Translations under genes and position numbers: made by a program
Source of the DNA: an uncultured Rhodospirillales bacterium
GTDB taxonomy: Bacteria > Pseudomonadota > Alphaproteobacteria > Rhodospirillales > UBA2165
DNA: 64,000 bases
Direction: 5' to 3'
NCBI GenBank assembly: GCA_913055735.1
Contig: CAJXKD010000001.1
Location: forward strand, 62,001-126,000
The notes under the pieces: model-generated
The model's input: only the letters and a program-made list of their open reading frames with translations
What the model was told of the DNA's origin: nothing
The model's database searches: none
Shown: positions 42,177-58,140 of the stretch, piece by piece
Layout: each line of letters starts with the position of its first letter
Numbering within the stretch: the first letter of the stretch is position 1

Positions 42177-42456
42177 GCTACAACTCCGTCCGCCGCCCCG
42201 TCCACTTGGCTGCCAACTTGGGCATATGGCCGCAAATGGCCCACACGGCTTAGTTTACGTCAGGTGGTCAAGGCACGGCTGTGATTTGGCGCATAGCGGC
42301 ACCGAGCCCTCCATATGGTGATGATTTCTTCTTTTTCATCAGATAGTTAGCAGGCCGTTAACCAGCCTTACGTGGATAGAATCCTCAGTTTTCCAGCGTT
42401 TGAGCCGCCTTGCGCTTACCTTGCACGCCGGGGGCAGCGGGAGTATCAGTTGGCCG
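42177..42456. other. 280-base divergent spacer upstream of trmFO
   Basis: No RNA gene or strong hairpin is visible. It holds the start regions of the pentapeptide-repeat gene (minus) and trmFO (plus). An open frame from 42400 runs into trmFO but lacks family similarity before the ATG at 42457. Confidence 0.4.
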
Positions 42457-43842
42457 ATGAACCATTCCCAAAGGCAATCCACAGAGCGCCGTGTTCACGT
42501 GGTTGGCGGCGGCCTCGCCGGGTCTGAGGCCGCGTGGCAACTCGCGCAGGCCGGAATTCCCGTCATTCTGCACGAAATGCGGCCGGAACGGGGCACCGAC
42601 GCGCATCAAACGGACGGGCTGGCCGAACTTGTCTGCTCCAATTCCTTCCGCTCCGACGACGCCGAATTCAATGCCGTCGGGCTGCTGCACGAAGAGATGC
42701 GGCGCGCGGGATCGCTCATTATGACCATGGCGGACAGGCACCGACTGCCCGCAGGCGGCGCCTTAGCGGTCGACCGGGAAGGGTTTAGTGCGGCAGTCCA
42801 AAAAGCCCTCGAGGATAATCCCCTGGTCGAAATCGACCGGCGCGAGGTGACCGGCCTTCCCCCCGCCGACTGGGAAAAAGTGATCGTCGCCACCGGCCCT
42901 CTCACGTCTCCCGACCTGGCGAACGCCATCCGAGGCCTCACCGGCGACGACGGTCTCGCTTTCTTCGATGCCATCGCGCCCATCGTCTATAAGGACAGTA
43001 TCGATTTTTCAAAGGCGTGGTTCCAATCGCGCTACGACAAGGGCGACGGCGCCGACTATATCAATTGCCCCTTGGACGATGATCAATATGCCCGGTTCAT
43101 CGGGGAACTGCTCAGCGCCGAGCGGGTCTCCTTCAAGGAATGGGAAGAAAACACCCCTTATTTCGAAGGCTGTCTGCCCATCGAAGTGATGGCGGAGCGC
43201 GGCCCGCAAACCTTAGCCTTCGGCCCCATGAAGCCGGTCGGCCTCACCAATCCCCATGCGCCCGACGTCAAACCCAAAGCAATCGTTCAGCTGCGCCAGG
43301 ACAACGCTTTCGGGACGCTCTACAACATGGTCGGCTTTCAAACCAAATTGACGTATGGCGAGCAGAAGCGGGTATTCCGGACCATCCCCGGCCTGGAGAA
43401 TGCCGAATTTGCGCGCCTTGGCGGGCTGCACCGCAACACGTTCATCAACTCGCCGCGTCTGTTGGATAGCCATCTCCGCCTCAGGGCGGATTCGCGCCTG
43501 CGGTTCGCCGGCCAGATCACCGGTTGCGAAGGATATGTCGAAAGTGCCGCCGTTGGGCTGCTGGCGGGTAGATTTGCCGCCGACGATTGCCTTGGGCGGG
43601 CGACCGACCTTCCGCCACCGACCACGGCGATGGGAGCACTTCTCGGTCATATCACCACCGGCGATCCGGAAACCTATCAACCGATGAACGTCAATTTCGG
43701 ATTGTTTCCGCCACTTTCCGCTGAACCCGGTGAAAAGAAACCGCCGCGCGGACGCGCCCGTAAAGCTGCCGTAAGCACACGTGCATTGCGCGATCTCGAA
43801 TTATGGCTGGCAAAGGTAGAAAAAATTAACGTAAGTAGTTGA
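42457..43842 (+). CDS. trmFO: Folate-dependent tRNA (uracil-54-C5)-methyltransferase TrmFO
   Basis: The protein has 461 residues. It makes ribothymidine-54 of tRNA using methylene-THF and FAD. FAD-binding [44 protein letters not shown] (with the conserved Cys) and the late [14 protein letters not shown] and HITTG...[11 protein letters not shown] stretches are characteristic. The last 25 residues are a basic extension ([12 protein letters not shown]). ATG 42457 is used because similarity begins there; an in-frame GTG/ATG further upstream gives an unrelated leader. Confidence 0.96.
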
Positions 43843-43917: not shown

Positions 43918-46053
43918 ATGAGGGACACGCCCACGATGAGGGACCTCGACCAGATAGGCCGGACGGCGGGCCGATATTTGCGCCGTCGAAAACATTTTTC
44001 GCGCTGGGCACTTGTTTGCCTTGTCAGCGTCTCTTTTCTTGCTCTCGCCCTACCGGCGGGCGCCCAAGACCTTGCCTTCCGTCTCGATCCAGCGCGGGCG
44101 CCGTCGCTGTTTGCAGCCGTGCAAAACAACGATCTGGCGGCGGTTTCGTCGGCCATCAAAAACGGAAAGAACGTCACTGAAACTGACGAATTCGGACGGA
44201 CGCCGCTCGACCTCGCTATGGAAATGGGCCATTTCGAGGTTGCCCAGGCCCTGATGCAGGCACGACGGGCAGAGATCGACCGGCTGACTAAATCAGAAGA
44301 ACAAGTGCAGCAAGATGCAGCGGTTGCCGTTCCGCCGTCCCAAGTCCCCCAAGTCCTTCCCGTCGCCCAAACCGATGTGTCTCCCGACCCCGAGGACGCT
44401 CCAGTACAAGCCCAAATACAAGCCGTGACCCATCTCGCGGAGGCCGCCGACATGCTCACGGGCGCCGCGCATCGGATCAGCACTGCCGCCGCCCTTTCCC
44501 CGGGCCAGATTACCAGCGGATCGGCGATCCAATTGGCCGAAGCGGCCGCCAAGTTGGCCGCCGCCGCCGACGAGCTTGTGGAAGCCGTCCAGAGTGGTGG
44601 GCGAAACGCGCCGCGACCGGACCTTATGGCCGAAGCGCCGCCGGCACAGCCCGCCAAGGACGTTGAACCCGAAACCGTCCAAACCGTCGCCGCCACCGAA
44701 GAAACGGCGGCGTCCATTGAAACAGCGGCTCTGATCCCGGCGGAGCCTGTCGAAACCCGTACCCTCGAACAGGCGGCCGCGGTCACGTTCCGGCCAACGC
44801 CCCGACGCAAGCCGGCGCCACCGGCCCCTGTCGTTGTGGCCCGCATCGAGCCGCCGGCGCCTGCTCAGATGGAAATTATCGACGCGCGCCCCGTACCCCC
44901 GGTCTCGGTCAGGCCGCTCGAAGCCGTCGATCTCGTCGCTCCCCCTCGCGATGAAGCGCCCATACCCGCGCAAACCGAGGATGACGGGCCCGTTGGTTCG
45001 CTGTTGGCCGGGATCGGCCGCGTGTTGGGTGTCACCGACGATAGCCCGGAACCGAATGAGGGGCCGATCCAACAGGCATTGCGTGAGCGACAAGCTGCCC
45101 CCGCCCCTTCCGTGCGGCCCGAAAAAGAGGCCCCGGTGATCCAAAGAAGCACGGCCCGTGCCCCCATCATCCAACGCCTCGGCGACAATGCGCCGCCGCC
45201 GGTCCCGGCCTTGCCGGAGATCGTTCGTGAAACACCGCTCGAAACGGCGAGCGCACCGGTACTGCCGATCGCCTCGGTTGACCCTGTGGCGCCGGAACCC
45301 GTGGCGAGCGAAACACCGGCGCCACAAGCGGCGGGGCCCAAGCCGTCCGTAGACGCCGTCCACGAACTGCCCGCCGAGGAAACCCGGCTTCTTCCGCAAC
45401 AGGACGCATCGGGCATGCCGATTCAGAGGCTCCGAGATGCACTGCAGGGTGTCCACCTTACCCTCGGCGATTCCGTTGCGATGGGCCACCCCCAACGCCG
45501 GTACGGCGCAGATGAACCAAGCGCCTGTATCTCCAAACGGCAACGCCATTCGGCATTCTGCGTCGTCCCCGTCGATTGGCCAGCGGAGATCGCCGATGCC
45601 TTCTCGGTCAACACAATCCTGTATCAGGGATCGCGGGCCCTCGCCCGCTATGACCGCGACGCGGCCGTCCATATCCACGCCATTTTCGACAGCGGCGCCT
45701 ATAACCGCGTTCTCTCCTTTCTGCGTGGCCGGTTCGGCTCCCCGACGGACGAATGGCGGCGGGTCGTCGCCCCCTTCGGCAAACCGCGCCAAGCCAATCC
45801 CACCTATGTGTGGCGCAGCCGGGACCCGGAAACCCAGCAGATTTCGGTGCTGGAAGTCCGCAAATTCGATGATGCCCGCGCCGTCTTTCCCGATATGGAG
45901 CACGGCTCGGTCCGGCTCTACATGGCCGGTGGCCCGACGGTCTTTCCGGCCGTTACGGCCATCGATATCATGTCGATCGATTGGGCGGCCCGCTCCGATC
46001 CCGTCGCGCCCGATGGGAACGCCCTCGCGAATACGCTTCCCGTTTCGCGCTGA
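43918..46053 (+). CDS. Exported ankyrin-repeat/proline-rich protein
   Basis: The protein has 711 residues. A basic N-terminus plus hydrophobic segment ending PAGAQ (about 33-51) is a signal peptide. One to two ankyrin repeats follow (LFAAVQNNDLAAVSSAIKNG..., GRTPLDLAMEMGHFEVAQALM), then a coiled helix (about 115-135), a low-complexity Ala/Pro/Glu linker of about 370 residues, and a folded C-terminal domain at about 520-690 with GDSVAMGHPQRRYG and two nearby Cys (ACISKRQRHSAFCVV). I do not recognise that last domain. ATG 43936 is an alternative start. The 3' end overlaps the convergent gene by 86 bases. Confidence 0.75.
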   Translation: MRDTPTMRDLDQIGRTAGRYLRRRKHFSRWALVCLVSVSFLALALPAGAQDLAFRLDPARAPSLFAAVQNNDLAAVSSAIKNGKNVTETDEFGRTPLDLAMEMGHFEVAQALMQARRAEIDRLTKSEEQVQQDAAVAVPPSQVPQVLPVAQTDVSPDPEDAPVQAQIQAVTHLAEAADMLTGAAHRISTAAALSPGQITSGSAIQLAEAAAKLAAAADELVEAVQSGGRNAPRPDLMAEAPPAQPAKDVEPETVQTVAATEETAASIETAALIPAEPVETRTLEQAAAVTFRPTPRRKPAPPAPVVVARIEPPAPAQMEIIDARPVPPVSVRPLEAVDLVAPPRDEAPIPAQTEDDGPVGSLLAGIGRVLGVTDDSPEPNEGPIQQALRERQAAPAPSVRPEKEAPVIQRSTARAPIIQRLGDNAPPPVPALPEIVRETPLETASAPVLPIASVDPVAPEPVASETPAPQAAGPKPSVDAVHELPAEETRLLPQQDASGMPIQRLRDALQGVHLTLGDSVAMGHPQRRYGADEPSACISKRQRHSAFCVVPVDWPAEIADAFSVNTILYQGSRALARYDRDAAVHIHAIFDSGAYNRVLSFLRGRFGSPTDEWRRVVAPFGKPRQANPTYVWRSRDPETQQISVLEVRKFDDARAVFPDMEHGSVRLYMAGGPTVFPAVTAIDIMSIDWAARSDPVAPDGNALANTLPVSR

Positions 46054-46951
46054 GCCAAAGCCGGAGTTGCCGTCCGGCGCGCCCCCGCTCCAGTTTTTCG
46101 TCAAACGGGTTGTGACCCAATCGTTCGAGCCGGTCGAGGTATAGCTCGGCCAGACGCGCCTGCAGCGTCACGCCCTGCCATAGACGCGGCGCCGGGTAGG
46201 AATAGCGCCGAGCTTCTGCAATGTATGTCCGCGCTTCCTGGACGAGCTTTTTAACCGCCTCCACCAGTGCGGCCGAGGCGCGTCCACCCAGAATATCCGC
46301 GCCAACGGCGCTCTCCGCAGTCGCAACCGAGGACGGCAGCGTGATCCATCCCTTGCGGGCATGAAAGGGAATGGCGCGTAACCGCCCGGCAACGGACCAA
46401 GCCGCGCCTGTTGCGCGGGCCGCCTCCACTGCGTCTTGGGGAGCGTCGGGATCCAGAATATGGAGGAGAAGCTCGTTCAACGCCCCATCGGTTTCGGCGC
46501 CATGCGCGACAAAGGCCTCGACATCTACGGGAGGGGACGAGGTCACCTCGGCGGTACGGGCATCCAGCAACCGGTCGAAGGGCGCGCGCGGCAGATCGTA
46601 GTCGCGAACAACGTCGGCAAGCCTATCCAAGACCTGATTGCCCCGGGGGGCGGTTCCTTCCCCGTAAAGCGCCGCAACAACGTCGCGCCACCACTGCACC
46701 CGCATTTCCCCGAGAAGCGGCTCGCTGATGACCTCGCGGGTGCGGGCGATTTCGATATTGAAAGCAAGCAGCGCCCAAAGCGCTTCCAGCCGATCATCCG
46801 GCGCAAACAGCGTGCACAGGAACCGATCACGGTCCTGCCGCGCCACCTGGTCGCCGCAATAAGAAAGCCTTTTGGCCACTTTTCGGGAAACTCCGCCTAC
46901 GAATTCAGCCGTTCTTGCGATATAGAAGCGATATAGGTCGTAAAACGACAT
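45968..46951 (-). CDS. Squalene/phytoene-synthase-fold protein, NDUFAF6-like (likely non-catalytic)
   Basis: The protein has 327 residues. It has the all-helical prenyl-synthase fold, but the first aspartate-rich motif (DDxxD in HpnC/HpnD/CrtB) reads AFNIEIARTREVISE and the second reads GRLRAIPFHARKGWITLP, so the magnesium-binding aspartates are absent. The block YCGDQVARQDRDRFLCTLFAP...MRVQWWRD resembles mitochondrial NDUFAF6, a complex I assembly factor. That is from family memory. ATG 46951 is preferred; an ATG at 46987 lies within ATGACGTCAT, which is also the start of the divergent hpnE. It overlaps the ankyrin gene end. Confidence 0.75.
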   Translation of the reverse strand: MSFYDLYRFYIARTAEFVGGVSRKVAKRLSYCGDQVARQDRDRFLCTLFAPDDRLEALWALLAFNIEIARTREVISEPLLGEMRVQWWRDVVAALYGEGTAPRGNQVLDRLADVVRDYDLPRAPFDRLLDARTAEVTSSPPVDVEAFVAHGAETDGALNELLLHILDPDAPQDAVEAARATGAAWSVAGRLRAIPFHARKGWITLPSSVATAESAVGADILGGRASAALVEAVKKLVQEARTYIAEARRYSYPAPRLWQGVTLQARLAELYLDRLERLGHNPFDEKLERGRAGRQLRLWLSAKREAYSRGRSHRARRDRSGPPNRST

Positions 46952-46977: not shown

Positions 46978-48264
46978 ATGACGTCATCCCCTACCACCGC
47001 CACCTCCCCTGGCACGGTCACCGTGATCGGCGCCGGGTTGGCCGGCTTGGCCGCCGCCGTGCGAGCAACGGCCCTCGGCAGGCCGGTGCGGGTGATCGAG
47101 GCGGCCAACCAAGCGGGCGGGCGCTGCCGCTCTTTCCACGATACGGTCCTCGACCGCGTCATCGACAACGGCAATCACCTGATCCTCGGCGCCAACACGG
47201 GCGTCTTCGACTTTTTGCACGAGATCGGTGCGCAAAATGCCCTGACACCCTTGGACCCGCCCGACTTCAATTTCATCGATTTATCCGCAGATATGTCGTG
47301 GACCTTACGGCCGGGGGTTGGGCGCCTCCCCTGGTGGCTGCTGCATCCGCACAACCGCATACCGGGCAGCCGTCTCGCCGACCTGCGTGACGCCTATCGC
47401 CTCGCGACGGCATCCGAGGATGCGACGATTGCCGACTGTGTCGACCCGGCGGCCCCTCTGTTCGAACGCTTCTGGCAGCCGCTGGCGCGCGCCATCCTCA
47501 ATACCGACGCCACCGAGGGGTCGGCGCAACTCCTGTGGCGGGTGATACGCGAAACTCTGCTCACCGGCGCGGCAGGCAGCCGGCCCTATCTCGCTGCCAA
47601 GGGTCTGTCGGCGGCGTTGGTCGATCCGGCCCTCGATCACCTTCGGCAACGGGGCGTTTCCGTATCCTTCGGTACCCGCATTCGCGGCCTGGAAGCGGAG
47701 CATGGCCGGGCGAAAGCGCTTGTCACCAGCGGCGGCACGATCGAGATCGCGCCCGAGGACACAATCATCCTCGCCATACCGCCGAGCGAGGCGCAGGCGC
47801 TGCTTCCCGATCTAACCGTTCCGACCGAAACCCGGCCCATCGTCAACCTGCATTACCGTGTCGAGAGCGGCCTACGGCTGCCGGGCGGCGTGCCGTTTAT
47901 CGGCCTCGTCGGCAGCGAGGCCCAATGGGTCTTCAATCGGGGGGACATCCTCTCGGTGACAGTGAGCGCGGCGAGTGCGCTCGCGGCGCAATCGGCCGAG
48001 GCCATCGCGGCAACCGTTTGGGCCGAGCTCGCACGCGTCACCGGGGCACCGGGAACGCCGATACCACCGCACCGCGTGATCAAGGAACAGCGCGCCACAA
48101 TCGCCCAAACGCCCGCGCAGTTGCGGTTACGCCCCCCTGCCGGAACCCGAATCGGCGGCCTGTTTTTGGCGGGCGATTGGACCGACACGGGTCTTCCCGC
48201 CACCATCGACGGAGCGATTAGATCGGGATTTCAGGCCGCAGAAATGGCGGCTTCCGGCAATTGA
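46978..48264 (+). CDS. hpnE: Hydroxysqualene dehydroxylase HpnE-like FAD oxidoreductase
   Basis: The protein has 428 residues. GAGLAGLAAAVRATALGRPVRVIEA is the FAD site at 18-42, and GGRCRSF with VIDNGNHLILGAN is the HpnE-type second block. The C-terminal FLAGDWTDTGLPATIDGAIRSG matches the family's substrate-side motif. HpnE reduces hydroxysqualene to squalene in hopanoid synthesis with HpnC and HpnD, neither of which is in this window in active form. Divergent from the NDUFAF6-like gene. Related phytoene desaturase-like activities remain possible. Confidence 0.8.
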   Translation: MTSSPTTATSPGTVTVIGAGLAGLAAAVRATALGRPVRVIEAANQAGGRCRSFHDTVLDRVIDNGNHLILGANTGVFDFLHEIGAQNALTPLDPPDFNFIDLSADMSWTLRPGVGRLPWWLLHPHNRIPGSRLADLRDAYRLATASEDATIADCVDPAAPLFERFWQPLARAILNTDATEGSAQLLWRVIRETLLTGAAGSRPYLAAKGLSAALVDPALDHLRQRGVSVSFGTRIRGLEAEHGRAKALVTSGGTIEIAPEDTIILAIPPSEAQALLPDLTVPTETRPIVNLHYRVESGLRLPGGVPFIGLVGSEAQWVFNRGDILSVTVSAASALAAQSAEAIAATVWAELARVTGAPGTPIPPHRVIKEQRATIAQTPAQLRLRPPAGTRIGGLFLAGDWTDTGLPATIDGAIRSGFQAAEMAASGN

Positions 48265-48505: not shown

Positions 48506-49012
48506 ATGGAATTCGGATTTGAGTTTTGGGCGTTCTTTGTCCGCTGGCTGCATGTTCTGTCGGGCGTGATGTGGATCGGCCTGTTGTGGTACTTCAACTT
48601 CGTTCAGACGCCGACCGTGCCGACGATCCCGGCCGAGCTGCGTCCGGCGATCCCCAAGCACATCATGCCGGTGGCGCTGTTCTGGTTCCGCTGGGCGGCC
48701 CTGTCGACGGTGGTCTGGGGCTTGGTTCTCGCCTGGATGAACGGCTATCTGGGTCAGGCACTGTCCATCGGCCTCGCCGACAACGTCGGCAAACACGCGA
48801 TGATCGGCATCGGCATGTGGTTCGGCCTGATCATGGCGTTCAACGTGTGGTTCATCATTTGGCCGAACCAGCAGAAGGTCATCGGTCTGGTGGAAGCCAG
48901 TGACGAGGAGAAACCGAAGGCAGCCCGCAAGGCGGCTCTCGCCTCCCGCGTCAACACCATGCTGTCGATCCCGATGCTGTACGCGATGGTATCGGCACAG
49001 AACCTGTACTGA
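48506..49012 (+). CDS. Urate_ox_N (PuuD-like) four-helix membrane protein without the cytochrome c part
   Basis: The protein has 168 residues and four to five hydrophobic segments. WLHVLSGVMWIGLLWYFNFVQTP (His16 region) and GIGMWFGLIMAFNVWFIIWPNQQ match the N-terminal membrane domain of PuuD-type urate hydroxylases. Full PuuD is longer and ends in a c-type haem domain, and no CxxCH occurs here. His16, His52 and His97 are candidate haem or metal ligands. GGAGG lies before the ATG and a terminator follows. Role may be a membrane redox subunit; urate as substrate is unproven. Confidence 0.75.
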   Translation: MEFGFEFWAFFVRWLHVLSGVMWIGLLWYFNFVQTPTVPTIPAELRPAIPKHIMPVALFWFRWAALSTVVWGLVLAWMNGYLGQALSIGLADNVGKHAMIGIGMWFGLIMAFNVWFIIWPNQQKVIGLVEASDEEKPKAARKAALASRVNTMLSIPMLYAMVSAQNLY

Positions 49013-49087: not shown

Positions 49088-50191
49088 TTAGCCCCAGACC
49101 TCCTCGGCAACCTCAACCACCAGTTCGAGCTTCTTGCGCTGCTCGTCCATGGTCAGCTTGTTGCCGTGGTGGGTGCTGGAGAAGCCGCATTGCGGGCTCA
49201 GGCACAACTGATCGAGGGGCACGAACTCGGTCGCCTCGTCGATGCGCTTCCTGAGTTCGTCCTTGGGCTCCAATTCCGGGAACTTGGACGTGACAAGACC
49301 CAGCACCACGAACTTGCCCTTGGGCACAAAGCGCAACGGTTCGAAATCGCCGGCGCGGTCGCTGTCAAACTCCATGAAGAAGGCATCGACATCGAATTCG
49401 TTGAACATCTTATCGGCCACCGGCTCATAACCGCCCTGCGCCATCCACTCGCTTTGGAAGTTGCCGCGGCACATGTGGGTCGCCGTCGCAACGTTGTCGG
49501 GAAGACCGGCGAAGGCCGCATTGTTGGCCTTAATGTAGACATCGAGCAACTGATCGGGGTCGTCACCGCGCGCCTTCAGACGCTCGCGCTGCTCGTCGTC
49601 ACAGAAATAACAAAGGGTCACGTCATCCATCTGCAGATAGGTGCAGCCCGCGGCGACGAAATCCTTGAGTGCGTCGTTGTAGGCCTTGCCGAGATCGGAC
49701 CAGAATTCGCCGAGATCGGGATAAGCGTCGGAGGAAATGCCGTCACGGCCCGGACGGAAGTGGAACATGCCCGGCGCCGGAAAGCTGAACTTGGGGGTTT
49801 CCTTGGTCACCGACTTCAGGAACTCGAAGTGATCGACCATGATACCGCCCGCCGGATTGGAAACCTTGCCCTCGACGAATGTCGTTGCGACGGAAATACC
49901 GCCGTGGAACTTGTGACCGTAGGTTTCCTCGTTGAACTTCACGCCATCGAAGCCGCACATGAAATCCAGGTGCCAGTAGTCGCGGCGGAATTCGCCGTCG
50001 GTAATGGATTTGAGGCCGACGGATTCCTGTAGCGCCACCGCATCGCGGATCGCCGCGTCCTCGATTTCCTTGAGCTTCTCGCCTGAAAGTTCGCCCTTCT
50101 TCCATTTTTCGCGGGCGTCGTGGAGGTTGTCGGGCCTGAGCAGGCTGCCGACGTGATCGGCGCGGAAGGGGGGCTTGGTACGAGCGGCCAT
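49088..50191 (-). CDS. Cobalamin-independent methionine synthase C-terminal-like protein
   Basis: The protein has 367 residues. It corresponds to the catalytic C-terminal half of MetE, as in stand-alone YxjG-type proteins. The N-terminal RADHVGSLLRP is a substrate loop, DGEFRRDYWHLDF a core motif, and zinc ligands are the His and Cys of THMCRGN plus the Cys of LSPQCGF near the end. It may methylate homocysteine from a donor other than methyl-folate, or act in methyl-group detoxification; the donor is not known. GGGAG precedes the ATG on the minus strand. Confidence 0.87.
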   Translation of the reverse strand: MAARTKPPFRADHVGSLLRPDNLHDAREKWKKGELSGEKLKEIEDAAIRDAVALQESVGLKSITDGEFRRDYWHLDFMCGFDGVKFNEETYGHKFHGGISVATTFVEGKVSNPAGGIMVDHFEFLKSVTKETPKFSFPAPGMFHFRPGRDGISSDAYPDLGEFWSDLGKAYNDALKDFVAAGCTYLQMDDVTLCYFCDDEQRERLKARGDDPDQLLDVYIKANNAAFAGLPDNVATATHMCRGNFQSEWMAQGGYEPVADKMFNEFDVDAFFMEFDSDRAGDFEPLRFVPKGKFVVLGLVTSKFPELEPKDELRKRIDEATEFVPLDQLCLSPQCGFSSTHHGNKLTMDEQRKKLELVVEVAEEVWG

Positions 50192-50344
50192 TGGTTTTCT
50201 CCCTGGAAAGGCGGTATTCGTTGGCCGACATATATCATGGCCGGACCGGCGAGACAGGCAAAAATCGCCATTTCCCGGCCGTTTTCCCTGTGACGGAAGT
50301 CATAGTGGCCACCCCCCGGACAGCCTAATCTAATCAGCGGAAAA

Positions 50345-50387
50345 GTGGGCAGAATTCCCACGATTTGAGCGCCCCTAAAAGGAGGGG
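50345..50387 (+). promoter_or_regulatory. Paired leader hairpins before the rod-like gene
   Basis: GTGGG/CCCAC (50345-50361) is followed by CCCCT at 50372-50376 opposite AGGGG at 50383-50387. The second pairing would cover the strong Shine-Dalgarno sequence GGAGGGG (50381-50387) of the ATG at 50393, suggesting translational control. Confidence 0.3.
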
Positions 50388-50392
50388 ATCGG

Positions 50393-50704
50393 ATGAGCTT
50401 ATCGGCCGCCATGTCAACGGCAATCACGGGACTGCAGGACAGCGCGCTCAGAGCGCAGGTGGCGGCGTTCAACGTCGCCAATGTCAGCACGCCGGATTTC
50501 AAGGCGCAGAAGGTGCAGTCTTCGAGCTATGTCGCCAACGGCGCCGGCGCGGGTGTCCGCTCGACCGTCGTGGAGGGCGGCCCGGTCGACCTCGCCGAAC
50601 AGCTCGTCAATATGAACTTCGCGGAAGTCACTTACACGGCCAATGCGAAAGTGATCTCTACCCTCGGCCGGATGACCGGCGCGACGCTCGATATCCTCGC
50701 TTAA
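50393..50704 (+). CDS. Short flagellar basal-body rod-like protein
   Basis: The protein has 103 residues. It has the two terminal modules of the FlgB/FlgC/FlgG family but almost nothing between them: the N-terminal helix with AAFNVANVSTPDFKAQ (the ANxxTPxFKA rod signature) and the C-terminal VDLAEQLVNMNFAEVTYTANAKVISTLGRMTGATLDIL. FlgG is about 260 residues and FlgC about 140. No other flagellar gene is in the window. It may be a minor rod protein or a stray paralogue. The stop is six bases from the convergent glycosyltransferase stop. Confidence 0.82.
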   Translation: MSLSAAMSTAITGLQDSALRAQVAAFNVANVSTPDFKAQKVQSSSYVANGAGAGVRSTVVEGGPVDLAEQLVNMNFAEVTYTANAKVISTLGRMTGATLDILA

Positions 50705-50710
50705 TATTTC

Positions 50711-51880
50711 TCAGAGAAGATCGCTTAAGACCTTGGCCACTTCCGCCATACGGTGGGACGCCGTGTGTTCGGACAGGAACCGAAGCCTGCCCGCCGCCGC
50801 GATACGGGTGCGGGATTCCTCGTCGGCGAGATAGCGATCGATCAGACCCGGCAATTCATCCAGCGATTTGAAATAGACAACCTCTTCATCCGGCTCGTAC
50901 AACGCCGCCGCGTCATCGCGCCAATCGGTGATCATGAACGCGCCGCTGGCCGTCGCTTGGAATACCCGGTGGTGACAGGACTTTGGCCAGGGCGTGCAAT
51001 TGACATTGACCGCCGTCGAGCAAAAGAAGCGTGACAACTCGTGCCACTCCATGCCGCGATGCATATGGACGTTGGGCCGGTCGGTCACCGCGCTGCCGAT
51101 TCCGACGATATCCAAAAGGCGATCCCCCATCGCCTCAATCACTTGCCGGCGGACGATAGCTTTCTGTTCGAAATACATGGCGTGCGAGATCAATGAAAAT
51201 TCGAGCGACCAGGGATCCCACTCATCGGCCAGCATATCGAATACGTCAACATGATCCTTTTCGGCATCCAGCCGCGCGATCACCGTATTCGCCGCAGCGT
51301 TCATCCGGTAGTCCCAAAAATTACGCCATTTGGCGCGTTCGGCTTCGTAGGCATTGACCGTCGCGGCAAAGCCGACCTGGCACGTCAACTCCGGTTCCGC
51401 GGGAACCGGCCGGAATATCTCCGGATCGATATGCCACGGCGGCAAGTAATGGAGGTTGTCGAATCCCAGCCCCTCCATCTGGGCAATGACCTGCGTATCC
51501 GGAACAAACTGTGCCTTGTGATTGGGGGTGCGGACGTCTTTGAGTAGATAGAGATGCTTGACCGGGTTATCCGTCCACAACGTGGCGTAAGGGACTTCCA
51601 TATCATCGAGGAAAAAGGGCCCCTCGGCGGACATCAAAAAATTCTGTAGGCTGCTGCCCCAAAGCAGCACCACATCAACCTTCAATCGCTCGATCACCTT
51701 GCGGTAGGCGTCCGGCGACAGGATGTCCTCGATATAAATAACCTCGTGGCCCAGATCGGCGAGCGCCTGCAAAGCCGGCGCGCGCTGTGCGTCCCACCGG
51801 GCCCGCAACATGGTTAGCACACGCAGCGGCCTCTCCGCGGTTGTGCCTTTTCTGCCCGCGATTACCCGTGCCCGAAACAC
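50711..51880 (-). CDS. CgeB-like glycosyltransferase
   Basis: The protein has 389 residues. It is a two-lobed GT-B-like protein. An N-terminal lobe with LRVLTMLRARWDAQRAPALQALADLGHEVIYIED is followed by a glycosyl-transferase-1-type lobe ending CHHRVFQATASGAFMITDWRDD...LYEPDEEVVYFKSLDEL, the typical late CgeB block. The start is GTG with GAGGCAGGT upstream. It is last of three minus-strand genes with GT functions and lies convergent to the rod-like gene. The acceptor may be flagellin or another surface protein (inference). Confidence 0.8.
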   Translation of the reverse strand: MFRARVIAGRKGTTAERPLRVLTMLRARWDAQRAPALQALADLGHEVIYIEDILSPDAYRKVIERLKVDVVLLWGSSLQNFLMSAEGPFFLDDMEVPYATLWTDNPVKHLYLLKDVRTPNHKAQFVPDTQVIAQMEGLGFDNLHYLPPWHIDPEIFRPVPAEPELTCQVGFAATVNAYEAERAKWRNFWDYRMNAAANTVIARLDAEKDHVDVFDMLADEWDPWSLEFSLISHAMYFEQKAIVRRQVIEAMGDRLLDIVGIGSAVTDRPNVHMHRGMEWHELSRFFCSTAVNVNCTPWPKSCHHRVFQATASGAFMITDWRDDAAALYEPDEEVVYFKSLDELPGLIDRYLADEESRTRIAAAGRLRFLSEHTASHRMAEVAKVLSDLL

Positions 51881-51946
51881 ACCTGCCTCGCACTCAAATG
51901 ATCAGATTTCATGGCGTTGGAGATTAGGCGCAAGATGTTAACGGAA

Positions 51947-53011
51947 TTACCCATTTGCCCCTTCGCTCAAGGAGCCACCCACCCGCCAGTCCGTTGCTTG
52001 CCGGGTACCATCGGCGGGTTGCAGCGCCGGGTGCGTGTAACAGCGATCGAGATCGAGATAGGTTTCGCAGGCTACCCAGTCGCGAAACGCCGGATCGTTC
52101 TGAAAAGCGTCACAATGCATCCGCAAACCGTCGGTCAAACCCTGCGTCACCGCGGTCCGCAATTCCGCCGGTACCGCACTCGCGTCGCGGAAGTAGCGCG
52201 AAGCGATACCTTCGATGTCGTCGTCAGAAGGAAAGTCATAGAGCTCGCCCGATTGACGGAGGAACTGATAGGACCGCGCACAGCCCGCCGAGACGAATTT
52301 GGCGTGTACGCTCTCCAAGGTCAGGCGGCGATCCGGTATGGCGTGGATGACCGCCGCCTCGGGATGATAGACCACCCGATGCCCTTGCTCCGCGACCGTC
52401 CGGCCGACATACACCTCGCCGTCGCCGTAAAAGCGGATCAAGTTCCACGGCATGGCGCACGGGTGAAATCCGCCGACATTGATCAGAAGTTGCCGCCGAA
52501 CGGTGAAATTGCTCCCCCATACGAAATTTCCGGGAATATCGAGAGGCTTGCTTCCGGCATCGAGCAAACCGAGAAACGGATTGGTTTCGGCGCCGGGATC
52601 GCCCAACCGCAAATGATCCAACCAATCAGGGGGCGTGCCATCATACGACGGGCGGATGGGGCCGGTGGCCATCCCGACGCGCGCGTCCGAATAAGTTTCC
52701 GCCAGCGCCGCCAGCCAGGACGGTTGGGGACGTACGTCATCGTCGATAAAGCACGCAATGTCGCCCGTCGCAACGGCGAGCGCGCGATGCCAGCCCACCA
52801 ATTGGCCGGGGCGTGCATCATAGATGTATTGGAAATTGGGAAATCGGGCCGCCATGCGATCACAGACGGCACGGGTTTCGTCGCGGCTGCCGTTATCGGC
52901 AACGACCACCTCAACATCCTGAAACGGAAAATCCTGTGCCGCCAAGGCGGCAAGGCCCTCCGCCAAACTGTCGGCGCGGTTGCAGGTGACGATGGCGACG
53001 GTGAACTGCAC
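51947..53011 (-). CDS. Family 2 glycosyltransferase
   Basis: The protein has 354 residues. It has a GT-A fold: FTVAIVTCNRADSLAEGLAALAAQ at the N-terminus, VVVADNGSRDET for the nucleotide site, and an Asp triad at 90-92 (CFIDDDVRPQPSW) that is the metal-binding DxD equivalent. The rest, including VWGSNFTVRRQLLINVGGF, is the acceptor half. No membrane segment, so likely cytoplasmic. It is 14 bases after the 721-residue gene and 66 before the CgeB-like gene. Confidence 0.9.
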   Translation of the reverse strand: MQFTVAIVTCNRADSLAEGLAALAAQDFPFQDVEVVVADNGSRDETRAVCDRMAARFPNFQYIYDARPGQLVGWHRALAVATGDIACFIDDDVRPQPSWLAALAETYSDARVGMATGPIRPSYDGTPPDWLDHLRLGDPGAETNPFLGLLDAGSKPLDIPGNFVWGSNFTVRRQLLINVGGFHPCAMPWNLIRFYGDGEVYVGRTVAEQGHRVVYHPEAAVIHAIPDRRLTLESVHAKFVSAGCARSYQFLRQSGELYDFPSDDDIEGIASRYFRDASAVPAELRTAVTQGLTDGLRMHCDAFQNDPAFRDWVACETYLDLDRCYTHPALQPADGTRQATDWRVGGSLSEGANG

Positions 53012-53025
53012 AGAAGCGATCCGGG

Positions 53026-55191
53026 TTAGGCGTCCTCTTTCACCATATGGTTAACAATCTCGGCAATCCAAGCATCCAGATTGGCTTGTCGCGCGATCGC
53101 GGTGTTCAGACTGTCTGGCTGCATCATGACCCGTTTGCCTTCCGGGCTACGGACACGGTCCGCAAGCAGCACCCACCAGCGCGTCAACTGATCCGCGTCG
53201 AGTTCCCTTCCCAAGGCCGACAACGCATCGACGGCAAAGGGCAAAAGATTCTTCAGGTTGGGTGGATAAAGAGCAATGGCACGAGAGCAGGCGTGCCAAG
53301 TTTCTTCCGGTGCCGCGCCCATTTCGGCACATAAAGGCACCAAAGCCGCCCAGGCCGGGAAATGATCGGGAAAGAGTTCAACTGCCGCCTTCAAATCCTG
53401 CCGTGCGCCGGCAGAATCTCCCGCCGTGACCTTCTGCCTGCCGAGATAAAAGCGTGCGGTCGCCTGCAAAATCCTGCGCGCGTCCGCACACATTGCGTCA
53501 CCCGCCCGAAGTCCCCGCGTCACCGCCCAATAATAATCTTCATAAGGAAGCGCCGCTGCCATCGGGCGAATGCGATGGCTGAGCAAGGCGTCCCGGCGCG
53601 GATTGAAAGTCAATGCATCGCCTTTCTCGGCCACTGTACTGAAATATTCAACGGCCTCCGCCGCCGCCCCAAGCGCCGACAGCGCACATCCCGCATTAAA
53701 CTGAGCAACAAGCGACTGCGGGAATCTATCCGCGCATGACCGATGCAGATCGTAGGTCATTTGCGTCAATCGCTGGTTGTCGTGAGCCGCCATGGCAGCA
53801 TAAAAGGCCGCCGCCGCCGCGCGAATTGCCGGCGCCGCCTCATCGCCAACCTCTTCCAGATTCAATGATGCCAGGCGCGTATAGATTGCGATGCCGCGGC
53901 TCGGTTCGTACCCGCGGAACTCAACCGCCCCAACCTGCGACTCTTCCGCCGGCTTTTGCCGTGGCCCCGCCAGCAACGTCTGCAAAAGCGCAAATTTCAA
54001 AAAACGCGTTTCCCGCTGGGGAGAAGACCAAAGAAAATCAGAGAGAACCGACGGATCGGGTTTTGCATCGTGGCCATGGGCAAGCCGCGCCAACACGTCG
54101 TCCGCATCGGCGCCTGCCAGAGAGATATAGCCGCCATTCTCTCCGCCCATGAGATCGCCAATCAAGTTTTCCTCCGGCGACAAGACATTGGCCCCGGCAA
54201 AGAATGCATCGATTGCGCGAGTTTGAACGGATGCTGCATAGCGACAATGGATGGGAATAAAGCGCGCCGACGCCAATGCTGTTCGGTAGCGGGAGTTGTC
54301 GAGGTAGCCGTCGACGATTTCGATCCGCAGGGCTGGATCTTCCAACGTCGCCAATTGGAACAGGTACTGCGCTTTGTCCCGCATATACGGAACGAACGCA
54401 CGACCGGTAAAACGAACGTCGCAATCGCGGTCGATGGGAGCCGACCCCGCCGGTGGTGCGTCGTAGAATTCATGCCCAGGCAAGGTCACGATCCGCGTCT
54501 CATAAATGTCCGTCATCTCGGCCTGCTCGGCAGCCCCATTGACGATTACTACATCTGCGCGCTCGAAATCCGCCGACCGGGAAGCCACGAAATAGTCGTG
54601 ATCGCTGGCCCAAAGTACCGTTGGGATACTGGCATCAAAAAAACCTTTGGGAAGGTACGGGCCGTAGGCATCGACGCTCAATACGAAGACGGGATCGAAG
54701 CCCTGCGGCAATGCTGCCATGACGTCTGCCATAGGTATCCCGAACTGGGCCGGCTCGAGGGAAACAACATGAAGGTTAAACCCTTTTGCCGTTTCAAATT
54801 CCACGGCCTTTGCCGAGCCCGGCATGGTAAAAACCAGAACATCCAACGGACCGCCTTCGATAAATTGCTTCAATTTCGTGCTGTCTGGGTCTGACTCCGC
54901 GCCGCCATTTAACGACGCAATTGCCGCCTGATCGTCACCGAGGCACCAGTTTCCGTAAGCGAGAGCCAATCGAGACCGCGCCGACAACGGCGCCATTTGA
55001 CGTAAAGCGTCAATGCCGGGTGCCACCGCACCGCACATTATCGCGGCGGCGGCAGTCAACTCGGCGTCGACGCCGGCAAGAACACACGCCAAGACATAGT
55101 TGCCAGCGTCGAAGGCAGAGGCGGCATCGCGGTAGCTGTGAGTAACGGTTGGCGGTGTCGGAAAAATGTCGAGATCGGTGATACCGTTCAT
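53026..55191 (-). CDS. Large CgeB-like glycosyltransferase with TPR-type C-terminus
   Basis: The protein has 721 residues. Residues of about 100-400 look like a CgeB-type GT (VLVFTMPGSAKAVEF, PTVLWASDHDYF, CDVRFTGRAFVPYMRDKA, IHCRYAASVQTRAIDAFFAGANVLSPEE). Helical TPR-like repeats follow from about 430, for example VAQFNAGCALSALGAAAEAVEYFSTVAEKG and KVTAGDSAGARQDLKAAVELFPDHF. TPR-GT chains often glycosylate flagellin-like or other Ser/Thr proteins. The gene starts 19 bases after the Mth938 gene, so it could be read from the secDF transcript. Confidence 0.7.
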   Translation of the reverse strand: MNGITDLDIFPTPPTVTHSYRDAASAFDAGNYVLACVLAGVDAELTAAAAIMCGAVAPGIDALRQMAPLSARSRLALAYGNWCLGDDQAAIASLNGGAESDPDSTKLKQFIEGGPLDVLVFTMPGSAKAVEFETAKGFNLHVVSLEPAQFGIPMADVMAALPQGFDPVFVLSVDAYGPYLPKGFFDASIPTVLWASDHDYFVASRSADFERADVVIVNGAAEQAEMTDIYETRIVTLPGHEFYDAPPAGSAPIDRDCDVRFTGRAFVPYMRDKAQYLFQLATLEDPALRIEIVDGYLDNSRYRTALASARFIPIHCRYAASVQTRAIDAFFAGANVLSPEENLIGDLMGGENGGYISLAGADADDVLARLAHGHDAKPDPSVLSDFLWSSPQRETRFLKFALLQTLLAGPRQKPAEESQVGAVEFRGYEPSRGIAIYTRLASLNLEEVGDEAAPAIRAAAAAFYAAMAAHDNQRLTQMTYDLHRSCADRFPQSLVAQFNAGCALSALGAAAEAVEYFSTVAEKGDALTFNPRRDALLSHRIRPMAAALPYEDYYWAVTRGLRAGDAMCADARRILQATARFYLGRQKVTAGDSAGARQDLKAAVELFPDHFPAWAALVPLCAEMGAAPEETWHACSRAIALYPPNLKNLLPFAVDALSALGRELDADQLTRWWVLLADRVRSPEGKRVMMQPDSLNTAIARQANLDAWIAEIVNHMVKEDA

Positions 55192-55210: not shown

Positions 55211-55594
55211 TCAATCCACCGGGAACAAAGCGGCCGCCACCCGCCGTTCCTCGGCAAGCAAGACGTTGAAAGTGCGGCATGCAGCGCCCGTATCCATGGG
55301 TTCCAATACCACACCGGCGGCTCGCAATCCGTCTCGGATTCCCGAATCGATCATAACATTGCGTGGCCCGCAGCCGAGCAACAGGATATCGACATCCGCC
55401 TGCGCATCAAAAACAACCGACAGGCTTTCCAACGTCATTTCGGAAATGGAGGCCGGCGCCCAGGAGATCGTTCGGTCGGGAAAAATGACGACAGACCCGG
55501 AATAGGCCTGCTCTCCAATGCGGAACCCGCCATTGCCATAGCTCAGGATAAGCTGTTTGCCGGCGGGAACCATCGGCGTGATGTCGAGGGACAT
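55211..55594 (-). CDS. Mth938/NDUFAF3-like protein
   Basis: The protein has 127 residues. It is an Mth938-like domain (formerly DUF498): GKQLILSYGNGGFRIGEQAYSGSVVIFPDRTISW, then ILLLGCGPRN and the C-terminal TGAACRTFNVLLAEERRVAAALFPV. The mitochondrial relative NDUFAF3 is a complex I assembly factor, and the gene's place directly after secF is the known alphaproteobacterial arrangement. Forty bases separate it from secF. Confidence 0.87.
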   Translation of the reverse strand: MSLDITPMVPAGKQLILSYGNGGFRIGEQAYSGSVVIFPDRTISWAPASISEMTLESLSVVFDAQADVDILLLGCGPRNVMIDSGIRDGLRAAGVVLEPMDTGAACRTFNVLLAEERRVAAALFPVD

Positions 55595-55634: not shown

Positions 55635-56561
55635 TTAGGTGGCTTCGCTCTCCGCGCCGACGCCGTCGGCACCCCGGTTGATGTTCAGGTAAAGCAGGAT
55701 CGGCACGGCGACGCAGATGGACGAATAGGTGCCGATCACAACGCCCCAAATCAGCGCAAAACTGAAACCGCGAATGACCTCGCCGCCAAGAATGTAGAGG
55801 GACAGCAAGGCGATCAAGGTCGTGCCCGACGTCATCAACGTCCGGGACAAAGTTTCGTTGATGCTGTCGTTGAACAGTTCGGGCAACGGCTTGGTCTTGT
55901 ATTTGCGCAGATTTTCACGCACCCGGTCGAACACCACGACGGTATCGTTGATGGAATAACCGGCAATGGTCAGAACGGCGGCGACCGTCGCCAAATTGAA
56001 CTCGATACCGGTCAGCGCGAAGATGCCGATGGTCGCCAATACGTCGTGCATCAGCGCAATGATCGCGCCGACACCGAACTGCCATTCGAACCGGAACCAG
56101 ATGTAGATCAGGATACCGATCATGGCGAACAACACGGCGAGCACGCCGTCACGCAAAAGCTCGGCGCTCACTTTCGGGCCAACGGATTCGGTGCGCCGAT
56201 ACTCAATATTGGACCCCAATGCCGCGCGGACTTTGTTGATGGCTTCCTGCTGCGCCTCGTCACCCCCGTCCTGACGCTGGATGCGGATCAGAATGTCATC
56301 GGGCGCCCCGAACTCCTGCAACGATACTTCGCCCAATCCGAGGTTCGACAGATCGGTGCGCAAATCGCTGATCGTCGTGCCATCCGTCGTCCGCACCTCG
56401 ATGAGGATGCCGCCTTTGAAGTCGATGCCGTAATTGAGGCCTTTGGTCAGAAACAATCCCAATGAAGCCGCAACAAGGAGCGCCGAAAAGATGAAATAGA
56501 TCACACGGCGGCTGATGAAATTCAGGTTGGGTTGAGTAGGCAGAAGCTTGATGGGTTTCAT
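55635..56561 (-). CDS. secF: Protein translocase subunit SecF
   Basis: The protein has 308 residues with six membrane segments. The first helix is at about 22-42, followed by GLNYGIDFKGGILIEV and the periplasmic P1-like part, then five C-terminal helices with AGYSINDTVVVFDRVREN, the conserved region involved in proton-motive-force use. It acts with SecD downstream of SecYEG. The gene follows secD by ten bases. Confidence 0.95.
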   Translation of the reverse strand: MKPIKLLPTQPNLNFISRRVIYFIFSALLVAASLGLFLTKGLNYGIDFKGGILIEVRTTDGTTISDLRTDLSNLGLGEVSLQEFGAPDDILIRIQRQDGGDEAQQEAINKVRAALGSNIEYRRTESVGPKVSAELLRDGVLAVLFAMIGILIYIWFRFEWQFGVGAIIALMHDVLATIGIFALTGIEFNLATVAAVLTIAGYSINDTVVVFDRVRENLRKYKTKPLPELFNDSINETLSRTLMTSGTTLIALLSLYILGGEVIRGFSFALIWGVVIGTYSSICVAVPILLYLNINRGADGVGAESEAT

Positions 56562-56571
56562 GCGCGCCTCC

Positions 56572-58140
56572 TCAAATCGGCAATTCGGCGGGCCGCCGCC
56601 GACGCAGCCAGGTGACCACCATCAGCCGGGTGAGCATGATCGCCGTGAACATGGAGGTGACGATCCCGATGGACAGCGTCACCGCGAACCCGCGCACCGG
56701 ACCCGAGCCGAAATAGAACAGGATAAGCGACGCGATCAACGTCGTCAGGTTGGCGTCGATAATGGTGGTAATGGCGCGGGAGTACCCGGAATCGATCGCC
56801 GAAATAGGCGTTCGGCCGGCACGAATTTCCTCCCGTATTCGCTCAAAGATCAGCACATTCGCATCCACCGCCATACCGATGGTCAATACGATACCGGCGA
56901 TACCGGGCAAGGTGAGCGTTGCCTGGAACAAGGATAGCAAAGCCAGGATCAGAACGATATTCACGGCCAGCGCGACGTCCGCCATGATCCCGAAAAGGCC
57001 ATACGTTATAACCATAAAGACGATGACCGCGACCAAACCGACGATTGAGGCGATCTTTCCGGCGGCGATTGAGTCGGCACCAAGGCCGGGACCGACAGTC
57101 CGCTCCTCAAGGATGGTCAATGGCGCCGGCAAGGCACCGGCCCGCAACAGCAATGCGAGGTCGTTGGCGTCATCAACGGAGAAATTACCGCTGATCTGCC
57201 CTGACCCGCCCAGGATCGGTTCGCGGATCACCGGGGCTGAAATCACTTTCCCGTCGAGCACAATGGCAAAGGGCCGCCCGACATTGTCCCGCGTCACGTC
57301 GCCAAACCGTTTCGCGCCGAGGGTATCGAAACGGAATGTCACTACCGGCTCATTGGTGCGTTGATCGAACGAGGCCTGCGAATCCACCAACCGGTCGCCC
57401 GAAACCGCGACCCGGCGGCGCAACAAATAGCTGCCTTGAGCGTTCGGATTGGTCGCGTCGGCGTCTGCGGCCCGCATGCATCCCGGCGGCACCGCATTGG
57501 GCGACGGCGCACTCGACTCGCACATCAAATGGAAGGTCATTTTGGCCGTGCGCCCCAACAGGCGTTTGACCCGCTCGGGGTCTTCAACGCCGGGAAGCTG
57601 CAAAAGAATGCGGTCTTCGCCCTGGCGCTGAATGGTCGGCTCCTTGGTACCGGTTTCGTCGATACGGCGGCGCACGATCTCGATGGACTGCGCCACGGCG
57701 GCGGTCCGGCGCTCGGTTATGACTTCGTCGCTCAACTGGAGACGGATGCGATTTCCTTGCGGGACGACCTCGATGCCCTCCTCCACGTCCTGGAGAAGCT
57801 CGATCGCCCTTGCCATTTCTGCCGAATCCCGGACAGTCACCATGACGCCCAGTCCGCTGACCCCAAGGCCGGAATAGCGGATGCGCTCCTTGCGCAACGC
57901 GGCGCGGACGCCGTCGATCAACGCTTCGAGTTGCTCCCCAATAACGACATCGGTCTGCACTTCGAGAAGAAGGTGAGACCCACCCTGCAGGTCGAGGCCG
58001 AGATTGACTTGCTGGTGCGGCAACCAGTCCGGCAGGTTCTCCGACGTCTGCTTATCTATAAGGTTGGGCGCGGCGAAAACGAACCCCAACACCACGAGGG
58101 CGAGAACGACGGCGATCTTCCAGTTGGAGAAATGAACCAT
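56572..58140 (-). CDS. secD: Protein translocase subunit SecD
   Basis: The protein has 522 residues. It begins with a membrane segment (9-25), then NLGLDLQGGSHLLLEV and a large periplasmic P1 region (about 40-340) including NVGRPFAIVLDGKVISAPVI, then five C-terminal helices with GMAVDANVLIFERIREE. It is 70 bases after yajC and ten bases before secF. It assists late stages of Sec export, which would include the bufferin precursor and the transport binding proteins here. Confidence 0.96.
   Translation of the reverse strand: MVHFSNWKIAVVLALVVLGFVFAAPNLIDKQTSENLPDWLPHQQVNLGLDLQGGSHLLLEVQTDVVIGEQLEALIDGVRAALRKERIRYSGLGVSGLGVMVTVRDSAEMARAIELLQDVEEGIEVVPQGNRIRLQLSDEVITERRTAAVAQSIEIVRRRIDETGTKEPTIQRQGEDRILLQLPGVEDPERVKRLLGRTAKMTFHLMCESSAPSPNAVPPGCMRAADADATNPNAQGSYLLRRRVAVSGDRLVDSQASFDQRTNEPVVTFRFDTLGAKRFGDVTRDNVGRPFAIVLDGKVISAPVIREPILGGSGQISGNFSVDDANDLALLLRAGALPAPLTILEERTVGPGLGADSIAAGKIASIVGLVAVIVFMVITYGLFGIMADVALAVNIVLILALLSLFQATLTLPGIAGIVLTIGMAVDANVLIFERIREEIRAGRTPISAIDSGYSRAITTIIDANLTTLIASLILFYFGSGPVRGFAVTLSIGIVTSMFTAIMLTRLMVVTWLRRRRPAELPI

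Follow-up and report, generated by a model that had tools for sequence, protein, structure and literature searches.

What does a protein do that keeps the fold of squalene synthases without their catalytic aspartates? The question is raised by a gene in a 64,000-nucleotide stretch of DNA (hereafter the window) from an uncultured Rhodospirillales bacterium (assembly GCA_913055735.1, contig CAJXKD010000001.1, positions 62,001 to 126,000). The gene, here named AF6L for NDUFAF6-like protein, had been likened in an initial annotation to the mitochondrial complex I assembly factor NDUFAF6. The evidence presented below suggests that AF6L is probably the alphaproteobacterial ortholog of NDUFAF6, without prenyl-transfer chemistry, and an assembly factor for mitochondrial-type (hereafter alpha-type) complex I.

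45968..46951, minus strand (open reading frame 46951..45968): AF6L, NDUFAF6-like protein with an SQS_PSY fold, catalytic aspartates absent

The reading frame is real and comprises 327 codons on the minus strand, a strand that the initial annotation had left unspecified.

Identity of the squalene synthase-like protein

In a maximum-likelihood tree of 95 rows, AF6L, 49 relatives and human NDUFAF6 formed one group (100/100), HpnC formed a single clade (100/100), and the AF6L group lay outside both HpnC and HpnD. The placement that the initial annotation had named as refuting its view, within HpnC/HpnD, was not observed. One of the 49 relatives comes from a record titled Anaerolineae and is probably misbinned. 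Within this tree, the grouping with eukaryotic NDUFAF6 involves a single eukaryotic row on a long branch, the order inside the AF6L group is mostly ill-defined, and bootstrap values had not fully settled. HpnD came out as paraphyletic when the tree was rooted at its midpoint; one of its rows (L039) adjoined the AF6L group, and the tree therefore does not single out the paralog from which AF6L derives.

The human NDUFAF6 sequence used in the tree, profile and alignment was checked at 11 positions: it has the expected wild-type residue at each of the 11 disease-variant sites named in the available portion of PMC13036829, and its length of 333 agrees with that given in the accessible part of PMC8007014. 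A profile built from bacterial AF6L rows only gave the human protein 263.9 bits, against 79.6 for HpnD and 35.5 for HpnC, and the median identity of the human protein was 29.1% to 154 AF6L rows, 19.5% to HpnD and 15.1% to HpnC. Together with the tree, this bears out the proposed similarity to NDUFAF6. AF6L itself is 24% identical to human NDUFAF6 over 278 aligned columns, sharing D40, N65, E67, R84, Q86, W88, R132, R192 and H197, and carries the human residue at four of the 11 disease positions (human D69, L77, A89 and R274, corresponding to D40, L48, A60 and R248), of which D40 and R248 show 99% and 84% conservation, respectively, across the 154 rows.

By profile, AF6L falls well short of both hopanoid enzymes: its best NCBIfam match is HpnD at 72.3 bits (equivalog cut-off 278.6), its score to HpnC is 37.2 bits (cut-off 250.45), and profiles built in this study gave 28.8 bits for HpnD and 11.6 for HpnC against 347 for its own family, of which AF6L is a member. 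The genome has its own HpnD (323.9 bits) and HpnC (260.8 bits), both above these cut-offs and both on contig C2, where they sit in a hop locus with squalene-hopene cyclase (C2:20000-38000, L004).

The initial annotation had also claimed that both aspartate-rich motifs were missing, and an alignment of 155 AF6L-family rows (AF6L and its copies included), 80 HpnD rows and 56 HpnC rows confirmed it. Each of the five aspartates (three in motif 1, DDxxD, and two in motif 2, DxxxD) is 100% conserved in HpnD and 88-95% in HpnC, and at these metal-binding positions AF6L has E73, V74 and E77, then A193 and H197. Within the family, glutamate replaces two motif 1 aspartates in 84% and 83% of rows; motif 2 is mostly A or S and H, L or Q (A in 77%, H in 62%), so that the metal ligand pair is absent. 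Residues kept in more than 90% of the family include D40, R43, N65, E67, R84, Q86, W87, W88, H105, R132 and R192, although AF6L itself carries N at position 105; W88 and R192 are also common to HpnD.

The predicted fold is nonetheless that of squalene and phytoene synthases, as expected of the NDUFAF6 family. Pfam SQS_PSY matched AF6L at 149.7 bits, the lowest of the three SQS_PSY genes in the genome. An AlphaFold2 model built from 37 rows (predicted local distance difference test, pLDDT, 87.6; predicted template modelling score 0.85) matched the CrtM-like and HpnC structures 5iys, 8is6, 4hd1 and 2zco in Foldseek (E 6e-8 to 7e-7). Structural alignment gave Z scores of 25-30, with 29.9 for the best CrtM-like structure and 25.1 for HpnC 4hd1; the alignment with 8is8 (Z 29.9) covered 268 residues at a root-mean-square deviation of 2.5. 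The dehydrosqualene and phytoene synthases CrtM and CrtB are thus the closest solved structures by fold (Z 27-30), yet they are only 12-16% identical to AF6L in structural alignments and AF6L lacks the catalytic aspartates. A PDB search with the single AF6L sequence returned no match, and a profile search of the PDB returned 13 matches, with no NDUFAF6 chain among them.

AF6L therefore resembles NDUFAF6 (C8orf38) in tree group, fold family and loss of both DxxxD motifs, the loss in NDUFAF6 and NDU1 having already been published (PMC8007014, in its accessible part, citing Lemire 2017). It differs in being bacterial, in needing no mitochondrial targeting, in its 24% identity and in that its assembly role is putative. 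With HpnD and HpnC it shares the Pfam family and fold, and is often encoded next door to them, whereas those enzymes keep DDxxD and DxxxD and lie outside its tree group.

Occurrence with alpha-type complex I

AF6L occurs together with alpha-type complex I, whereas the converse holds only in part. The clearest contrast comes from genome family f48, probably Acetobacteraceae to judge by gene content and genome sizes, in which 100 genomes were typed by NuoD: 78 have the alpha type, 11 carry solely a second type, which scores 541-569 bits in a frame of about 600 aa, and 11 have none above cut-off, with G477 (567 bits, 460-aa frame) counted as alpha-type by its frame. The 51 genomes searched for AF6L comprise 10 of the 11 without NuoD, all 11 with the second type and 30 hand-picked from the 78 with the alpha type; the other 49 are 48 alpha-type genomes and G470, in which a fragment of NuoD lies where a contig ends. 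NDUFA12 was present in 31 of the 51, namely the 30 alpha-type genomes and G514. AF6L was found in 29 of these 31 (26 by best profile and three weak matches checked separately) and in none of the 20 genomes without NDUFA12, where no match begins before profile position 31. These 20 consist of nine without NuoD above cut-off and eleven with only the second NuoD type. All 20 keep HpnD, and all 20 have an HpnC-like match (13 by profile, seven by match position only). G514 has both AF6L and NDUFA12, and NuoD was not found there; as NDUFA12 is present, the assembly has probably missed a NuoD gene, and we rejected this genome as a case of AF6L without NuoD.

The second NuoD type grouped with E. coli, away from the alpha type, in a tree that included 5 of the 11 genomes, and in one of these five, G478, NuoD was sister to the E. 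coli row itself, a placement that points to two acquisitions. Consistently, E. coli nuoC matched the G388 gene at 66.6% and gave no match to the alpha-type gene of G056. Six loci (L257-L262, from G388, G476, G478, G474, G489 and G516) carry the E. coli-type fused nuoCD, probably acquired twice, and in some f48 genomes it stands beside the alpha type (G516).

Beyond f48, the window's own genome has alpha-type NuoD, and a match to AF6L was found in 34 of 40 genomes of its order. At class level we considered 143 genomes, all of them 95% complete or better except the window's own (94.79), and counted AF6L-profile matches of at least 129 bits, since weaker ones may be AF6L or HpnD. Such a match was present in 77 of the 143 genomes, all 77 of which have a NuoD match (above cut-off in 76), and in none of the 13 genomes without NuoD; among the 35 class genomes without a match, 20 are listed as such and the remainder were taken from their absence among the matches listed. 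A second lineage without NuoD, f63, was examined through the better of the two matches in G071, which proved to be HpnD with HpnC beside it, so that this one genome agrees with the f48 pattern; G166, with a weak match, was left out.

Since squalene genes stay where AF6L is absent, E. coli-type complex I alone occurs without AF6L, 29 of 31 NDUFA12-bearing genomes have it, and the protein is orthologous to NDUFAF6, a role in the assembly of alpha-type complex I is favoured, and it is supported by co-occurrence.

A number of observations weigh against this interpretation, or limit how far it can be taken. Five of the six order genomes without an AF6L match have NuoD above cut-off, and three of these five (G008 and G034, both of family f9, and G038) have only two SQS_PSY genes each. 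In the opposite direction, G015, which is 63% complete, has an AF6L match and no NuoD. At class level, 53 of the 130 genomes with any NuoD match have no AF6L-profile match of at least 129 bits, many of them genomes of 1.2-2.1 Mb, and two larger genomes, G125 (3.9 Mb) and G177 (5.0 Mb), have a NuoD match and no AF6L-profile match at all. All 13 genomes without NuoD are small (0.8-1.8 Mb), which makes general gene loss a confounder, and together with the 53 of 130 this renders the class pattern alone weak. Two f48 genomes carry both alpha-type NuoD and NDUFA12 yet lack an intact AF6L: G500, whose matches are HpnD- and HpnC-like, and G510, which has only a frame-broken AF6L remnant. An HpnD tree was built from 45 of the 51 f48 rows (G487, G540, G521, G463, G462 and G350, which have no clean HpnD, being left out); on it, NDUFA12 loss required one change and AF6L three, leaving one independent pair, so that a sign test cannot reach significance for 29 of 31 against 0 of 20. 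We therefore rejected the 51-genome contrast as independent evidence genome by genome, as it represents one event on that tree. AF6L also differs from the human protein at seven of the 11 disease positions, and no experiment on AF6L in any bacterium was found in the literature searched. Many genomes with complex I lack AF6L, most of them small but some, in the window's order, of normal size; AF6L is therefore not universally required, and complex I as such can do without it.

Some of these genomes deserve mention in their own right. G008 and G034, whose HpnD loci are L061 and L046, are natural cases of complex I without AF6L; G014 and G033, also in the window's order, contain fragments that may be a cut AF6L copy; and the G510 remnant (L255, G510:C1:286000-294000, approximately 3700-4244) is spread over several frames, reflecting either decay or sequencing error.

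A conserved secD-secF-trmFO neighbourhood

The genes that flank AF6L in the window are as follows.

42400..43842, plus strand: trmFO, at the opposite end of the conserved block from secD
43918..46053, plus strand: ankyrin-repeat protein, convergent with AF6L
46978..48264, plus strand: hpnE, hydroxysqualene dehydroxylase, head-to-head with AF6L
48506..49012, plus strand: small membrane protein with a PF06181 (Urate_ox_N) match
55211..55594, minus strand: DUF498/Mth938-type protein, NDUFAF3-like (PF04430, 109.3 bits, cut-off 33)
55635..56561, minus strand: secF
56572..58140, minus strand: secD

Read along the window, trmFO and the ankyrin gene (plus) are followed by AF6L (minus), hpnE and the PF06181 gene (plus), about 6 kb of other genes, and then DUF498, secF and secD (minus). 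AF6L is part of a widespread alphaproteobacterial block in which secD, secF and the NDUFAF3-like DUF498 gene precede, with other genes between, an NDUFAF6-like gene that faces trmFO, and the order and strands of this block are kept in the window.

This conclusion draws on two sets of loci. The first consists of named loci, the best 80 of at least 590 confirmed stretches, which were counted only where the flank sufficed (55 with at least 4.5 kb upstream and 66 with at least 3 kb downstream); the genera with an AF6L gene among these best 80 include Azospirillum, Telmatospirillum, Thalassospira, Kiloniella and Magnetospirillum. The second comprises loci from 20 class genomes of 18 families, hand-chosen from the 77 clear matches and mostly on large contigs, at least one of which (G050) is also in the named set (L114). 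Among the named loci, DUF498 is found upstream of AF6L, in the same orientation, in 43 of 55 and secF in 40 of 55, and trmFO faces AF6L in 53 of 66; for each of these three genes the class genomes give 16 of 20. Less constant are an hpnC, hpnD or hpnE gene upstream on the opposite strand (22 of 55; 4 of 20), a homolog of the PF06181 gene in the same position (19 of 55; 4 of 20), and, on the downstream side, a convergent homolog of the ankyrin gene (6 of 66 named loci). AF6L immediately follows DUF498 in six named loci (L098, L101, L107, L128, L129 and L138). The distance between the two genes often appears to be below 2 kb in relatives, although this is an uncounted impression; in the window, the intervening 49088-55191 (about 6 kb from the PF06181 gene to DUF498) holds genes for a methionine-synthase-like protein, for a glycosyltransferase and for a product that matches TPR weakly. 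One further locus, L105, from a record titled as an Anaerolineae metagenome-assembled genome, has a secDF-DUF498-AF6L-trmFO block with an AF6L very close to that of the alphaproteobacterial L126, and the contig is probably misbinned.

An hpnC/D/E cassette often stands head-to-head with the AF6L block, and in the window only hpnE is left. This is the genome's only HpnE above cut-off and lies away from the hop locus on C2: it has been split off from hpnC, hpnD, shc and others, remaining beside AF6L. In some relatives, hpnC, hpnD and hpnE are found together beside AF6L (for example, L085, L283 and L284), and in L076, L092, L227 and L228, hpnC and hpnD form one open frame scoring to both profiles, i.e. 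a gene fusion.

The initial annotation had set AF6L beside the NDUFAF3-like gene as a second respiratory-assembly candidate in the region. The upstream position in 43 of 55 and 16 of 20 loci makes this link firmer than could be seen there; in f48, the best-sampled family, the NDUFAF3-like gene does not follow complex I. It occurs in one of the 51 f48 genomes, unconnected there with complex I, which weighs against the proposed role as well; the synteny is therefore not a strict functional pair, and the gene failed as a second marker of complex I in this family. Across nine f48 loci the block is dissolved altogether (DUF498 1/9, secF 0/9, hpnC/D/E 0/9, PF06181 0/9, trmFO 1/9).

The AF6L and ankyrin genes converge and share 86 bases at their 3' ends. 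For the start of AF6L, a GTG at 46879 appears likelier than the ATG at 46951, because the matches of relatives begin only at residues 18-36, residues 2-8 and 11-22 have pLDDT below 50 in the model, and GGCGGAG precedes the GTG; such a start would put 98 bases between AF6L and the start of hpnE.

Alternative functions and a proposed mechanism

AF6L could instead bind an isoprenoid or quinone for respiration or lipid supply generally, its tie to complex I being indirect. The cavity-type fold kept in the predicted model and the persistence of complex I without AF6L in some genomes would suit such a role, as would the statement in the accessible part of PMC8007014 that neither the molecular function of NDUFAF6 nor the eukaryotic protein's ligand or activity is known. 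However, AF6L is absent from the 11 f48 genomes with second-type complex I and HpnD and without NDUFA12, where a general quinone or lipid role should have remained, and we consider this explanation unlikely.

Still less probable, and in our view very improbable, is that AF6L is a working squalene-pathway prenyl-transferase that uses Glu in place of Asp as a metal ligand and works alongside the head-to-head hpnE. The orientation of hpnE in the window, the upstream hpnC/D/E genes elsewhere and the two acidic residues mostly kept in motif 1 all speak for it, whereas motif 2 mostly offers no metal ligand pair, the genome has HpnC and HpnD above equivalog cut-offs, the 20 f48 genomes without NDUFA12 and AF6L all keep HpnD, and human NDUFAF6 falls in the same tree group. 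An enzyme paired with hpnE was accordingly rejected, as squalene genes persist where AF6L is absent. That AF6L is an ordinary hopanoid gene, a diverged HpnC or HpnD, has next to no probability despite HpnD being the best NCBIfam match, as it is rejected by scores far below the NCBIfam cut-off and its own-family score, by the genome's own HpnC and HpnD elsewhere, and by the separate 100/100 group, barring a long-branch tree artefact.

If AF6L is, as we favour, an assembly factor for alpha-type complex I, it would be a cytoplasmic, membrane-bound protein in which the former substrate cavity and a conserved face (D40, R43, E67, R84, QWW 86-88, R132 and R192) hold a hydrophobic partner. NDUFAF6 is tied to ND1, and candidate partners are a membrane-arm subunit that has just been inserted, for instance NuoH/ND1, and an isoprenoid or quinone tail. 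The partner might be held during assembly of the proximal membrane arm, next to the SecDF-assisted insertion machinery; the position beside secD and secF would suit a factor that assists a proximal membrane-arm subunit as it enters the membrane or afterwards. In the sections available of the respective papers, NDUFAF6 is tabulated with the proximal-pump part of the membrane arm (PMC10910544), an interaction between NDUFAF3 and C8orf38 is supported (PMC3436739), and NDUFAF6 variants lead to mitochondrial disease (PMC13036829).

A broader and more tentative proposal is that the alphaproteobacterial protein is a factor dedicated to alpha-type, NDUFA12-bearing complex I and disappears from genomes once this complex is lost or gives way to the E. 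coli type. The ancestral secD-secF-NDUFAF3-NDUFAF6 cluster would then link the insertion of membrane proteins to the assembly of complex I, two assembly factors of mitochondria may go back to one bacterial block, and AF6L might have arisen from a squalene synthase in the cassette still often found head-to-head with it. Co-loss with alpha-type complex I, or a secDF-NDUFAF3-NDUFAF6 block, was not reported in the literature searched, which included the accessible parts of PMC8007014, PMC3436739, PMC10910544, PMC7050145 and PMC13036829, with Lemire 2017 and Saada 2009, the likeliest places, outside its coverage. The conserved secD-secF-NDUFAF3-like-NDUFAF6-like-trmFO block and the f48 contrast between NDUFA12 and AF6L are new here. 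This contrast predicts that AF6L is needed for alpha-type complex I and useless for the E. coli type, and orthologs in Azospirillum, Telmatospirillum, Thalassospira, Kiloniella and Magnetospirillum would permit clean deletion and reconstitution.

For annotation, the family carries a recurrent risk of being misnamed as squalene or phytoene synthase, as the initial annotation had anticipated, and "squalene synthase" would be a misannotation of AF6L: among the 37 members scanned, the only NCBIfam models matched (E up to 0.001) were squalene/phytoene synthases.

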